Shown here in pieces: positions 26,225 to 31,356 of a stretch of 64,000 nt of DNA. The translations under genes were made by a program, and so were the position numbers. The DNA is from Microbacterium proteolyticum (lineage in GTDB: Bacteria; Actinomycetota; Actinomycetes; Actinomycetales; Microbacteriaceae), in NCBI RefSeq assembly GCF_029639405.1, contig NZ_CP121274.1, positions 1,426,001 through 1,490,000 of the forward strand, in the 5' to 3' direction. The notes beneath the pieces are model-generated. The model saw only the letters and a program-made list of their open reading frames with translations, did not search any database and was not told the DNA's origin. Each line of letters begins with the position of its first letter. The first letter of the stretch is position 1.

Positions 26225-27685
26225 ATGTCCCACACCCGAGCCTTTCCCGAGGGCTTCCTCTTCGGCGCGGCGACCGCCGCGTACCAGATCGAGGGGGCCG
26301 CGTTCGAGGACGGGCGCACGGCCTCCATCTGGGACGCCTTCAGCCGGGTTCCCGACGCGGTGATCAACGCCGACAACGGCGATGTCGCGTGCGACCACTA
26401 CCACCGCTACGCCGACGACGTGCAGGTCATGAAGAGCCTCGGCCTCCAGACCTACCGCTTCTCCACGTCGTGGTCGCGCGTGCGTCCCGACGGCGGCGCG
26501 CTCAACCCGAGGGGCGTCGACTTCTACAAGCGTCTCGTCGACGAGCTCCTGGATGCCGGCATCCTCCCGTGGCTGACCCTGTATCACTGGGATCTCCCAC
26601 AGGCTCTGCAGGAACGTGGCGGCTGGACCGTCCGCGAGACGAGCGACCTCTTCGCCGAGTACGCGCTCGACATGCACGACGCCCTGGGCGACCGCGTGAA
26701 CGTGTGGACGACGCTCAACGAGCCGTGGTGCTCGTCGTTCCTCAGCTACACCGCCGGCGCCCACGCGCCCGGTCACTACTCGCAGGCCGAGGGCATGCTC
26801 GCCGCGCATCACCTGCTCCTGGGGCACGGCCAGACCGTCCGCGAGCTCCGCGCCCGCGACGCCTCGCTCAACCTCGGGCTCACGCTGAACCTGACCGTGG
26901 CGGATGCCGTCGACCCCACGAACCCCGCCGACCTCGACGCCGCCCGTCGCATCGACGGCCAGTTCAACCGATGGTTCCTCGACCCGGTGTTCCGGGGCAG
27001 CTACCCGGCCGACATCATCCAGGACTTCCGGAACGTGGATGCCGACGCGGTGAGGCAGTGGCAGGATGCCGTTCGCCCGGGCGACCTCGACGTCATCTCG
27101 ACCCCGATCGACACGCTCGGCGTGAACTACTACCACGGCGAGTACGTCGGTGGCAGGCCGCCGCTCGTGAACCCGCCGGCGGGCGACGCCCCCACGGTGC
27201 GCCCGATCGCGTCGCCGTTCCCCGCGCACGAGAACCTGTACTGGCACGAGCGGGGCCTTCCCCGCACGACGATGGGCTGGGAGGTGCAGCCCGAGGCGCT
27301 GACCGGCCTGCTCGAGCGCGTGAGCGCCGAGTACTCGGCCGAGGCCGGCGTCGCTCTGTACATCACCGAGAACGGTGCCGCCTACGACGACGTGCCCGTG
27401 ACCGAGGACGGCGAGACGCGCGTCCACGACTCCGAGCGCGTGGAGTTCGTGGAGGCGCATCTCGCCGCCGTCCTGGATGCCGTCGAGCAGGGCATCGACG
27501 TCCGTGGCTACTTCTACTGGTCGCTGCTCGACAACTTCGAGTGGGCCTGGGGCTACGAGAAGCGTTTCGGCATCGTGCACGTCGACTACGCGACGCAGGA
27601 GCGCTCCGTGAAGGACTCCGGCCTGGCGTACGCGCGGGTGATCGCGGAGCGGGCGCTGGTTGCGGAGCCCGCGGTGCGGCTGTAG
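26225..27685 (+). CDS. bglC: GH1 beta-glucosidase
   Basis: 486-aa family 1 glycoside hydrolase predicted to split imported cellobiose or short cellodextrins to glucose in the cytoplasm (no signal peptide). The N-terminal signature FLFGAATAAYQIEGA, acid/base Glu166 in TLNEPW and nucleophile Glu382 in YITENG are intact, and the WSLLDNFEWAWGY motif binds the -1 sugar. ATG 26225 is chosen for its GGAAGGA site; ATG 26192, overlapping the cebG stop, would add 11 residues ahead of the conserved start. It is the last gene of the CebR-regulated operon. Confidence 0.9.
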   Translation: MSHTRAFPEGFLFGAATAAYQIEGAAFEDGRTASIWDAFSRVPDAVINADNGDVACDHYHRYADDVQVMKSLGLQTYRFSTSWSRVRPDGGALNPRGVDFYKRLVDELLDAGILPWLTLYHWDLPQALQERGGWTVRETSDLFAEYALDMHDALGDRVNVWTTLNEPWCSSFLSYTAGAHAPGHYSQAEGMLAAHHLLLGHGQTVRELRARDASLNLGLTLNLTVADAVDPTNPADLDAARRIDGQFNRWFLDPVFRGSYPADIIQDFRNVDADAVRQWQDAVRPGDLDVISTPIDTLGVNYYHGEYVGGRPPLVNPPAGDAPTVRPIASPFPAHENLYWHERGLPRTTMGWEVQPEALTGLLERVSAEYSAEAGVALYITENGAAYDDVPVTEDGETRVHDSERVEFVEAHLAAVLDAVEQGIDVRGYFYWSLLDNFEWAWGYEKRFGIVHVDYATQERSVKDSGLAYARVIAERALVAEPAVRL

Positions 27686-27699
27686 CCCGTCAGCCGACG

Positions 27700-27729
27700 G
27701 CGGGGTGCCGTATACCCACGGCACCCCGC
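27700..27729 (+). terminator. Terminator hairpin after bglC
   Basis: Perfect 12-bp stem (27700-27711 with 27718-27729), 6-nt loop, 15 bp past the bglC stop. Likely end of the cebEFG-bglC transcript. Confidence 0.65.
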
Positions 27730-27863
27730 ACCAGCGCTCGTGTTGTCGACTCTTCCCGACCTGGCGAAACAGGTATGGCGACTGGGCGCCCGCTCGAATC
27801 CCCTTCCGAGGACGCTGCGGTCGCGTCGCCGAGGCGGGTGGGACGGAACCGGCCGGCGCCCAG

Positions 27864-29096
27864 TCAGCAGGTGCTCACGTTCGTGACGGCGAACCATCCT
27901 CCGGAGGCGGGGCCGCAGGAGGCGATGCCGGAGCGGACGGTGCTGCCGCTGCTTCCGACCAGTCGTCCGTCGGGGGTGAGGTAGAGGGCGCCGGGTCCGA
28001 GCGTGGAGTTGGCGGGGATGTTCGTGGCGCCGTGGTAGACGACGGAGCTGTCGAAGTAGCCGTACGTTCCGTCGGTGTTTTTGACGGCGAACCATCCTCC
28101 GGAGGCGGGGCCGCAGGAGGCGATGCCGGAGCGGACGGTGCTGCCGCTGCTTCCGACCAGTCGTCCGTCGGGGGTGAGGTAGAGGGCGCCGGGTCCGAGC
28201 GTGGAGTTGGCGGGGATGTTCGTGGCGCCGTGGTAGACGACGGAGCTGTCGAAGTAGCCGTACGTTCCGTCGGTGTTTTTGACGGCGAACCATCCTCCGG
28301 AGGCGGGGCCGCAGGAGGCGATGCCGGAGCGGACGGTGCTGCCGCTGCTTCCGACCAGTCGTCCGTCGGGGGTGAGGTAGAGGGCGCCGGGTCCGAGCGT
28401 GGAGTTGGCGGGGATGTTCGTGGCGCCGTGGTAGACGACGGAGCTGTCGAAGTAGCCGTACGTTCCGTCGGTGTTTTTGACGGCGAACCATCCTCCGGAG
28501 GCGGGGCCGCAGGAGGCGATGCCGGAGCGGACGGTGCTGCCGCTGCTTCCGACCAGTCGTCCGTCGGGGGTGAGGTAGAGGGCGCCGGGTCCGAGCGTGG
28601 AGTTGGCGGGGATGTTCGTGGCGCCGTGGTAGACGACGGAGCTGTCGAAATAGCCGTAGCTGACCGTGGCCGCTGAGGCGGCCGACAAGGCGGCCGAGTT
28701 GCTGGCCCCCGCACTGCTGCTGGTGACGGTACCTGAGCCGCCGACAGCAGGCACGCTGATGGTCGGCAGCGTGTATCGCCCATCCGTGCCCGACACCCCC
28801 GTGGCCGATGTCGATCCGCCGGCGAACGTGTACCCGTTCGACAGGGTGACCGTGATGGATGCGCCGGTCGTCGGTGTGCCGTCCGTCGTCGCGGTCACGT
28901 ACGCGCCGGTGATCGTCGAGCACGCCGTGCCGGAGTAGCTGGCCTGGTTGAACGCCAGCGCGAGCGTGCCCGAGGCCGAGGCCGCCGGGGCCACGGTCGC
29001 CGTCGCGATCACGGGGATGCTCCACGCCGCTCCGGCGAGGATGGTGCGGCGTGCGACGCCGTCGTCGGGCGCGGAGGCGCGCGAGAGGTCGGTCAT
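27864..29096 (-). CDS. Secreted protein with four 66-residue tandem repeats
   Basis: 410-aa exported protein that I do not recognise. A twin-arginine-like signal (VARRTILAGAAWSIPVIATA, cleavage near APAASAS) is of the kind common on Microbacteriaceae surface proteins. About 105 residues follow that resemble a Ser/Thr/Gly-rich beta-sandwich, then four copies of a 66-residue unit opening YGYFDSSVVYHGATNIP and ending GGWFAVKNTDGT, each with one Cys (SGIASCGPAS). The last copy ends TNVSTC. No LPXTG sorting signal or membrane anchor is visible, so it is probably released or held non-covalently. ATG 29096 follows AAGGAG. It is divergent from the poly-G AraC regulator gene, a possible controller. 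Confidence 0.7.
   Translation of the reverse strand: MTDLSRASAPDDGVARRTILAGAAWSIPVIATATVAPAASASGTLALAFNQASYSGTACSTITGAYVTATTDGTPTTGASITVTLSNGYTFAGGSTSATGVSGTDGRYTLPTISVPAVGGSGTVTSSSAGASNSAALSAASAATVSYGYFDSSVVYHGATNIPANSTLGPGALYLTPDGRLVGSSGSTVRSGIASCGPASGGWFAVKNTDGTYGYFDSSVVYHGATNIPANSTLGPGALYLTPDGRLVGSSGSTVRSGIASCGPASGGWFAVKNTDGTYGYFDSSVVYHGATNIPANSTLGPGALYLTPDGRLVGSSGSTVRSGIASCGPASGGWFAVKNTDGTYGYFDSSVVYHGATNIPANSTLGPGALYLTPDGRLVGSSGSTVRSGIASCGPASGGWFAVTNVSTC
27885..28676. repeat. Four tandem 198-bp repeats inside the secreted-protein gene
   Basis: Period exactly 198 bp (unit starts 27885, 28083, 28281, 28479). The copies are identical at nucleotide level by eye until the end of the fourth, where cgaagtag becomes cgaaatag near 28650 and homology stops. 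A multiple of three keeps the frame with any copy number. Such identity implies recent expansion or ongoing homogenisation. Confidence 0.9.
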
Positions 29097-29298
29097 GAGG
29101 GCTCCTTCGGTTCGGGTTCGTAGTGCCGTCATTCATGAAGCCGGGAACGGATGCCATTCCGCTCGTCCGTGTCGCAAGCGCGTGCGCACTGTCGGCGTTC
29201 CGGTGGCGCGGGTGAATCTCCCACGCGATTTCGGGACTGTTCGGGTGACCGCAGCCCCGCTTCCCCCCGATGCCCTCGGGCTGCGGCGACCGCGCCCC

Positions 29299-29304
29299 TA
29301 GAGT
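29299..29304 (+). promoter_or_regulatory. -10-like box of the AraC regulator gene
   Basis: TAGAGT, 43 nt before the ATG at 29348; a GGAGG ribosome-binding sequence follows near 29334-29338. It lies in the region shared with the divergent secreted-protein gene. Confidence 0.35.
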
Positions 29305-29347
29305 GTCCGGACCCGTCCCGGCATCCATCCGACGGAGGTGCACGCCC

Positions 29348-30302
29348 ATGTCCCACTCTCGGTCGCCGTGGCGCGTGCGCCGCGTCCCCCTGGAGGGGCG
29401 CGAGGTCGCGGAGTGGTTCCGCATGCGCGGGTGGACCGCGATCGACGCGGAGGCCGCGGCATCCCATGCCTTCATCGACGAGGCGATCGTGGCGGACGTC
29501 ACGATCCGACGCGTGTGGCACACGGCTCTCGCGCTCTCGCGGCCCGCGTCGGGCGAGACAGAGAGCGACACCCTCGTCGTCCACGTCGCGGGGGCGGGGA
29601 CCGTCCGGATCGGGGACGCCCCGCCCGCAGCCCTCGTGCCCGACGATGTCCTCTTCGTGCCGCGCGGCGAAGCGGTGGCGTACCGCAGCGACGAGCCGAT
29701 CGCGCGGATCGAGATCGATCACGGTGCGCGCGATCGCGCCGGCGACTTGTTCCACGTGCACGGCGAGCTCGTGTCGGCGGTCATGATCACCTCGGCCGTC
29801 AACGCCCTCTTCCACGCCCATGATTCGCGGGGGGGGGGGGGGGGGGGTATTCAGCGCTGCCGACGCAGTGGCAGCCTCGCTCCGAGCGCTGATCGCGGCG
29901 ATCCGCGCCGAGGCTCTCGCCATCGCCAGACCCCGGATGCCGCGCCTCCCGGTTGAGGTCGAGTACGACCGCCTCCATTCTCGCGCGCGCACGATCCTCG
30001 AGGCCGAGGCGGCGCGGCGCGACCTCACGATCGACGCGGTGGCGGAGCGCCTCGGCACGGGGCGCCGGCGCCTCGAGCGCGCCTTCCGCCTGCACGGCGA
30101 GTCGCCCGGAGACGTGCTGCGCGCCTCCCGTCTGCGCCTCGCGCGTGCGTTGCTCGATTCCGATCACGAGCTGCGCGCGCCCGAGATCGCCGACCTCGCC
30201 GGCTTCGCCTCCGCCCGCGCGCTGAAAGACGCGCTGGCGAAGCACGGCGTGACCGTTCCCGGACAGCGCGGAGGAGTACGCTCGCAACGTCGCCGGGAGT
30301 GA
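29348..30302 (+). CDS. AraC-family regulator, out of frame as written at a poly-G tract
   Basis: The N-terminal part (from ATG 29348) encodes a cupin-like sensor (VRIGDAPPAALVPDDVLFVP). After a run of 19 G at 29829-29847 this frame ends at 29956 as a 202-aa product without a DNA-binding domain. The next frame, open to 30302, encodes a clear AraC double helix-turn-helix (LTIDAVAERLGTGRRRLERA; APEIADLAGFASARALKDAL). Removing one G joins them into a normal 317-aa AraC protein with an oligo-Gly linker. So the locus is either a phase-variable gene caught in the off state or a homopolymer sequencing error. The ATG has GGAGG upstream; cebR starts 40 bp after the AraC stop on the same strand. Confidence 0.7.
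29829..29847. repeat. Homopolymer tract of 19 G
   Basis: Nineteen consecutive G at the junction of the sensor and DNA-binding domains of the AraC-type gene. Long poly-G runs are slippage-prone contingency sequences in several bacteria. With 18 (or 15, 21) G the gene is in frame; with 19 it is truncated. Confidence 0.9.
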
Positions 30303-30342
30303 TCCGGCTCACCGTCGCGTCGTTGATCCCGGGAGGAGCCCG

Positions 30343-31356
30343 ATGTCACTGACCCCCGTGCGCGGTGCCGCCACCATCGAAGAAGTCGCCGCTCGGGCGG
30401 GTGTCTCCCGCTCCACCGTGTCCCGGGTCGTCAATGGCTCGACCGCCGTCTCTCCGTCGGCGCTCGAATCGGTCCGCCGGGCGATCGAAGAGCTCCAGTA
30501 CGTCCCCAACCGCGCCGCCCGCTCGCTCGCCAGCCGGCAGACGCGCGCAATCGCCCTGGTCATCCCGGAAGACACCGACCGCTTCTTCGGCGACCCGTTC
30601 TTCGGGTCGATCGTCGCCGGGATCTCGCAGGTGATCGGCGAGTCCGACTACGTGATGAACATGCTCATCGCCACCGACGACGCCAGCGCCAAAGCCCTCG
30701 GCTACCTCCGCGGGGGTAGCGTCGACGGCGCCATCGTCGCCTCGCACCACACCAGCGACACGTTCGTCGACCGCCTGGCCGACACCGTGCCCGTGATCTT
30801 CGGCGGGCGCCCCGCGCGCGTGCGTCCCGCCGACCACTACGTCGACGTCGACAACGTCCAGGGCGGGCGGGATGCCACCCGCTACCTGGTCGACCGCGGC
30901 CACCGCCGAATCGCGACCGTCGCCGGACCCTCCGACATGCCCGCCGGCATCGACCGTCTGCAGGGCTTCCGCGACGTGCTCGCCGAGGCGGGACTGGAGC
31001 CCGTCGCGGTGGAGGACGGCGACTTCACCGAGGCCGGGGGCGCCGACGCGATGCGGAGGATCCTGGCATCCGGCGATCTTCCTGAGGCGCTGTTCGTCGC
31101 GAGCGATCTCATGGCCCGCGGCGCGTACACCGCTCTGCGCGAGCAGGGGCACGAGCCGGGTCGTGACATCGCGATCATCGGCTTCGACGACTCTGCGGTC
31201 GCGACCTCGCTCGTTCCCGCCCTCACGACCGTGCGGCAACCCTCGCGCGACCAGGGGCGGCAGATGGCGACGATGCTGCTCGACGTGCTCGCCGGCCGGG
31301 CGACGGCGAACACCGCGATCCTGCCAACGGAGATCATCGAGCGCGGATCCGCCTGA
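30343..31356 (+). CDS. cebR: LacI-family repressor, CebR type
   Basis: 337-aa LacI/GalR regulator. The N-terminal headpiece has TIEEVAARAGVSRSTVSRVV (about residues 11-30) and a hinge ending AARSLASRQ; the effector domain has IGFDDSAVATSLVPALTTVRQP. CebR of Streptomyces binds TGGGAGCGCTCCCA and is released by cellobiose; sites of that type control the cebEFG-bglC operon 7.6 kb upstream, so this is the expected repressor. ATG 30343 follows GGGAGGAG. It probably shares a transcript with the poly-G AraC gene, whose frame could therefore affect its expression by polarity. No CebR-type site lies directly before it. Confidence 0.8.
   Translation: MSLTPVRGAATIEEVAARAGVSRSTVSRVVNGSTAVSPSALESVRRAIEELQYVPNRAARSLASRQTRAIALVIPEDTDRFFGDPFFGSIVAGISQVIGESDYVMNMLIATDDASAKALGYLRGGSVDGAIVASHHTSDTFVDRLADTVPVIFGGRPARVRPADHYVDVDNVQGGRDATRYLVDRGHRRIATVAGPSDMPAGIDRLQGFRDVLAEAGLEPVAVEDGDFTEAGGADAMRRILASGDLPEALFVASDLMARGAYTALREQGHEPGRDIAIIGFDDSAVATSLVPALTTVRQPSRDQGRQMATMLLDVLAGRATANTAILPTEIIERGSA

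Follow-up and report, generated by a model that had tools for sequence, protein, structure and literature searches.

A G tract inside an AraC-type regulator gene of Microbacterium that probably switches an adjacent exported repeat protein on and off

The best-known contingency loci that switch by reading frame come from host-associated bacteria, and immune escape is the usual explanation for them. Poly-G and poly-C frame switches include bvgS of Bordetella. In Streptococcus pyogenes, an AraC-family gene, Spy1337, adjoins the divergent gene of the tandem-repeat surface protein Spy1336/R28, with the length of a homopolymer setting expression (PMC7098570). Variable homopolymers have also been reported for Gardnerella (PMC11287997), for Cutibacterium acnes, where variable G/C tracts follow clades and were read by the authors as slow accumulation (PMC4746626), and for espR of Mycobacterium tuberculosis, where the variable tract lies in the 5' UTR (PMC11898584). 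A search by title and beginning of the abstract, with subscription papers mostly outside its scope, returned no work on phase variation in Microbacterium or Microbacteriaceae, and this switch design in the regulator of an exported repeat protein is hardly known in this bacterial group. Here we describe a locus in a stretch of 64,000 nucleotides of the Microbacterium proteolyticum genome (contig NZ_CP121274.1, positions 1,426,001 to 1,490,000; hereafter the window), where the G run of an AraC-type regulator gene probably turns an adjacent exported repeat protein on and off at random, given that relatives carry runs of different length at the same spot.

The regulator gene and its divergent neighbour

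The regulator gene extends from an ATG at 29348-29350 to a stop codon at 30300-30302 and holds 19 G at 29829-29847, although the exact count may be off by some bases (Table 1). The ATG frame continues beyond the tract and closes after 202 aa, the open frame of the HTH half is the next one, and both halves fall into one 317-aa frame if the tract length is a multiple of three, which 19 is not. Matching of the C half to HTH_18 (42.5 bits, above the cut-off of 33.6) supplies the C-terminal AraC-type HTH of AraC/XylS-type regulators, and the N half resembles Cupin_6 with a score just under the cut-off (24.8 against 26.7 bits). Frames and domain matches agree with the preliminary description of this DNA, in which a 19-G run splits an AraC-type gene between its sensor and DNA-binding parts and a 317-aa protein results once the frame is restored. 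A search of the PDB with the AraC profile gave matches on the HTH side only. The model of the in-frame relative P0012 (7-row alignment, mean pLDDT 76.2, pTM 0.55) has a beta-rich N part, and its Gly165-169 lie within a loop modelled with low confidence (residues 162-170) that connects two linker helices; with the glycine tract placed in this interdomain loop, changes of tract length by whole codons should be tolerated by the regulator. The tract is the sole run of at least 12 G on either strand of the 3.97-Mb assembly, and all 11 overlapping 9-G matches in the window come from it, compared with a mean of 1.40 and a largest count of 6 in 100 shuffles.

Table 1. Positions of the features described (window coordinates unless a locus identifier is given)
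Feature	Position	Strand	Basis or remark
Two-gene module, absent from same-species genome G275	27665..30261		Locus L256: 96 other bases there, flanks about 97% identical
Divergent 410-aa tandem-repeat protein gene, likely target	27864..29096	-	Start chosen by eye from ribosome-binding site
Tandem repeats in the 410-aa protein gene, 198-nt spacing, four copies	27879..28772	-	Repeat analysis
Candidate operator TGTCG-N15-TGTCG	29170..29194	+	Present in 5/5 orthologous intergenic regions
AraC-type regulator gene, two halves in different frames in the assembly	29348..30302	+	Reading frames, domain matches
N half (cupin-like sensor region, linker helix 1)	29348..29828	+	Cupin_6 score below cut-off; model of in-frame relative P0012
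G tract, 19 nt, loop between two linker helices	29829..29847	+	Run count; P0012 model
C half (linker helix 2, AraC-type HTH domain)	29848..30302	+	HTH_18
5' C tracts in repeat-protein genes	L188:5922-5935, L189:4214-4222, L197:3928-3943, L202:3779-3804		Between start codon and Tat-type motif

The repeat protein encoded divergently from the regulator carries a motif that we take to be a twin-arginine-type (Tat-type) signal, and it ends in FAVTNVSTC, without LPXTG. Of the Pfam matches of the repeat proteins, a few pass the cut-off for the whole protein but no single stretch does so alone, and they were set aside as spurious. The AraC/repeat-protein pair also occurs in Microbacterium testaceum NS283 (G104), in Microbacterium sp. 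5K110 (G167) and twice in the single-contig genome G328. The direct repeat TGTCG-N15-TGTCG is present in all five intergenic regions (251 nt in the window), at 70-75 nt from the start of the repeat-protein gene and at 115-159 nt from that of the regulator gene, and it occurs once in the window. No other equally spaced pentamer repeat (8-39 nt) is common to the five regions, and 0 of 300 mononucleotide-shuffled sets of them shared any such repeat; the regions are related by descent, so that this conservation is only partly independent evidence. Because the direct repeat was absent from 15 other AraC/repeat-protein regions, cut out around the match ends, it is claimed for the orthologue group of the window only. 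Neither sigma-70-like promoters nor terminators were found in 28900-30500. Considering gene order and intergenic sequence, the repeat protein is the likely target of the AraC-type regulator. The divergent repeat protein as likely target, the direct repeat, the relatives with tracts of their own and the same-species genome free of the module are all new beyond the preliminary description.

Some side observations concern related genes. The genome of the window has a second divergent AraC/repeat-protein pair (L194, G000:C2:1368000-1376000) without a G or C tract of at least 8 nt. One of the repeat-protein partners in G328 retains the N part with repeats of an unrelated type. Additionally, two neighbouring repeat proteins (L143:8376-9617 and L143:11162-13045) have a common N part and unrelated repeat types, as if C-terminal parts had been exchanged.

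The reading that we favour, and hold to be likely, is a contingency locus in which slipped-strand events switch an AraC-type activator of the repeat protein. In the proposed mechanism, replication slippage would alter the length of the G tract; a length that joins both halves would yield the complete AraC-type protein, its linker helices connected by a short glycine loop (on), and any other length would leave the cupin half alone (off). The full regulator is predicted to bind the TGTCG-N15-TGTCG direct repeat and most likely to activate the divergent gene of the exported tandem-repeat protein, so that cells of one clone could switch this protein on or off, with adhesion, biofilm formation and escape from phages or grazers as guesses for its role. 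Slippage within a strain, DNA binding and activation by the regulator are what we infer, and the comparison among genomes supports the reading of the locus itself. AraC-type proteins can also repress and can act elsewhere, and it is possible, if somewhat unlikely, that the tract does switch the regulator while the regulator acts as a repressor of the repeat protein or has other genes as its main targets. Such a role would sit less easily with the direct repeat, whose distance to the repeat-protein start is steadier than that to the regulator start, and with the adjacency of the two genes in all five copies examined.

Orthologous tracts and selection on both halves

Orthologues of the regulator were searched in 198 genus genomes with the C half and the N half, and in 366 genus genomes with an N-half profile. 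Among the 198 genomes, the close relatives of the C half besides the window were found in Microbacterium sp. 5K110 (76%), Microbacterium sp. B19 (G055, 74%), Microbacterium sp. T32 (G009, 68%) and M. testaceum NS283 (53%), and those of the N half in sp. 5K110 (82%) and NS283 (55%). NS283 has the complete gene, in which a run of 14 G occupies the corresponding position and the 309-aa frame is unbroken. The N-half profile located two neighbouring copies in G328, which hold 22 and 14 G and of which neither is in frame. In the three draft assemblies G167, G055 and G009, the contig breaks exactly at the tract site: the N-half contig of G167 (27,670 nt) stops one base past the match and its C-half contig starts GGGGTAATCAGC, the contig of G055 terminates in 15 C (other strand), and that of G009 starts with 12 G. 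The absent N halves of G055 and G009 correspond to short contigs in the protein collection, namely those of P0014 (1,893 nt, together with the repeat protein P0037) and P0019 (1,229 nt), both glycine-ended.

The tract lengths read from DNA at this place are hence 14, 14, 19 and 22 G, and the reading frame changes with length among the relatives. Complete copies with at least four consecutive glycines were counted as tract-bearing (the window, G104, both G328 copies, P0008, P0010, P0011, P0012, P0016 and P0017); 2/10 are on (G104 and P0012) and 8/10 are off, as read from assemblies in which homopolymers are possibly miscalled. The out-of-frame tail of P0010 is the same as that of the window, P0011 is out of frame with an N half equal to that of G167, and P0008, whose N half is 94% identical, is out of frame in the class not used by the window, hence all three frames occur. 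This count leaves aside P0004 and P0006 for their odd tails, P0007 as too distant, and P0014 and P0019, which are truncated at contig ends. Overall, the tract is retained at the same place in orthologues to about 55% identity and in all three frame classes. It is not universal, since P0003 (as annotated, starting inside the N half), P0009, P0013 and P0018 are intact into the HTH half without a long glycine run. A family-wide search matched 7 of 299 genomes, the window's own included, and the 12 loci examined from other genera contained no run of at least 8 G or C.

This locus therefore combines a long mononucleotide tract in coding DNA with length and frame that vary among relatives, both of which are features of homopolymer contingency loci. 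The preliminary description had set beforehand that absence of the tract from relatives, or its replacement there by a non-homopolymeric stretch, would speak against switching; the comparison came out mostly in favour, with varied lengths at the same place, the exception being the four intact copies without a long glycine run. The variation in length also bears on slippage at the RNA level, transcriptional or ribosomal, by which the G tract would yield full and short protein together at a constant ratio, with no genetic switching involved. Slippage on long RNA homopolymers is known, but the tract varies between relatives over all three frames, as DNA slippage predicts; we consider the RNA-level explanation unlikely, even if both processes could act together.

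Purifying selection on both halves of the regulator is evident when close relatives are compared. For the N half, dN/dS is 0.17 (window and G167) and 0.19 (window and G328B), for the C half it is 0.28-0.33 (window with G009, G167 and G055), and the pair G328A and G104 gave 0.19 for the N half and 0.11 for the C half. Wider pairs reached at most 0.64 (N half) and 0.61 (C half), values that are weak since dS is high, and in shifted frames pN exceeded pS, as expected if the used frames are the coding ones. Accordingly, the coding parts on both sides of the tract are kept by selection in the closest relatives. A pseudogene in decay, with the G run there by coincidence, would account for the 8 of 10 complete tract-bearing copies that are out of frame and for the loss of the module from a same-species genome; it is nevertheless improbable, considering that the halves are open up to the tract, that dN/dS is low in close pairs, and that four copies without a long glycine run and two tract-bearing copies are intact. 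The reading of a phase-variable contingency locus in the preliminary description gains support from the same-place tracts, the three frames and the purifying selection. A homopolymer sequencing or assembly error over a gene that is really intact or has a short run, which was the alternative offered in that description, is very improbable, for even though long G runs are error-prone and many in the genus lie beside N gaps or at contig ends, orthologues in separate assemblies, including a single-contig genome with two copies, carry the run at the same place, which excludes a local artefact as the origin of the tract.

Tracts around repeat-protein genes in the genus and mismatch repair

The N part of the repeat protein was found in 65/366 genus genomes at E <= 1e-6, and 40 regions were taken around the better hits. 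Four complete repeat-protein genes carry C tracts (L188 C14, L189 C9, L197 C16 and L202 C26) that begin 7-11 codons downstream of the start codon and precede the Tat-type motif; one of these genes is in frame and the other three are out of frame. The contigs of L193 and L205 terminate in a 5' C tract of this kind. Two other AraC lineages beside repeat-protein genes also hold tracts: at L203:5851-5892 a G42 run directly precedes the HTH and the gene is out of frame, and at L223:5114-5134 a C21 run lies further upstream in the linker of a gene that is in frame; both genes are distantly related to the regulator of the window, and their tracts occupy other linker positions. In L012, a run of C11 near the AraC start is ambiguous because another start stays in frame. 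By eye, a motif resembling GAGAATCGACGGTC was seen upstream of the lone repeat-protein genes L189, L193, L196 and L211, perhaps a promoter element.

Across 22 genomes chosen for holding the repeat-protein family, 10/67 runs of at least 12 G lie within 3 kb of repeat-protein hits, where 0.38 were expected (binomial P 7e-12); the ten include the run of the window itself, which had given rise to the search. A strict DNA pattern of a C tract before the Tat-type motif was present in 2/341 genus genomes, G340 being outside the draw and the copies of G055 and G167 having a variant motif or being cut, so that gene-borne tracts, these missed copies included, are seen in few genomes only. Runs of at least 12 G exist in 109 of 198 genus genomes; such bare poly-G counts were dropped as support, since many runs lie at N gaps, at contig ends or in clusters. 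At L064, L067, L070, L082 and L088, for example, the long G runs of draft genomes fall at N gaps or at the ends of contigs and resemble sequencing artefacts.

The mismatch repair genes were searched by profile, with control genomes as expected: NucS_C was found in the genome of the window (139.7 bits), and MutS_V was not. In Mycobacterium smegmatis, NucS leaves indels of 1-2 nt unrepaired, which the authors tie to mycobacterial phase variation (PMC11551767). As the NucS of M. smegmatis leaves such small indels, slippage at the G tract of the window is plausible with NucS present and MutS_V not found.

Taken together, these patterns lead us to lean towards a broader proposal, in which an environmental group of Microbacterium may run a phasome whose G/C tracts are centred on one family of exported repeat proteins. 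The switches would have arisen separately in the regulator linker (at three positions) and in the first codons of repeat-protein genes, aided by a NucS-reliant mismatch repair that leaves indels, and would represent antigen-like switching outside animal hosts, convergent with streptococcal R28/Spy1337.

Comparison with described switches

If the proposal is true, such switches, conserved in Microbacterium and directed at an exported repeat protein, would suggest that phages, grazers or plant surfaces drive them rather than immune escape. Besides, the locus offers a test of whether NucS-type repair favours homopolymer switches.

With the poly-G/poly-C switches of Neisseria, Campylobacter, Helicobacter and Bordetella, the locus shares a long G/C tract in a coding frame that would set on and off by frame; it differs in its hosts and lineage, and a tract in the interdomain loop of an AraC-type protein was not found in that literature search. 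The tracts of Gardnerella, C. acnes and M. tuberculosis espR are likewise actinobacterial variable homopolymers, some of them in surface-protein or regulator genes, whereas those cases are host-associated and the portions of the sources covered contain no divergent AraC/repeat-protein module.

The layout of Spy1337/R28, an AraC-family gene divergent from the gene of a tandem-repeat exported protein, is found in the window as well, the expression-setting homopolymer being putative here. The intergenic variable tract and the LPXTG anchor of that module are lacking in the window: the streptococcal tract consists of T, is about 9-10 nt long and is intergenic, whereas that of the window consists of G, is 19 nt long and lies inside the regulator, and R28 is LPXTG-anchored, unlike the repeat protein described here. 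The likeness is one of layout, and by analogy the module of the window appears to work like Spy1337/R28 without being a member of that module.
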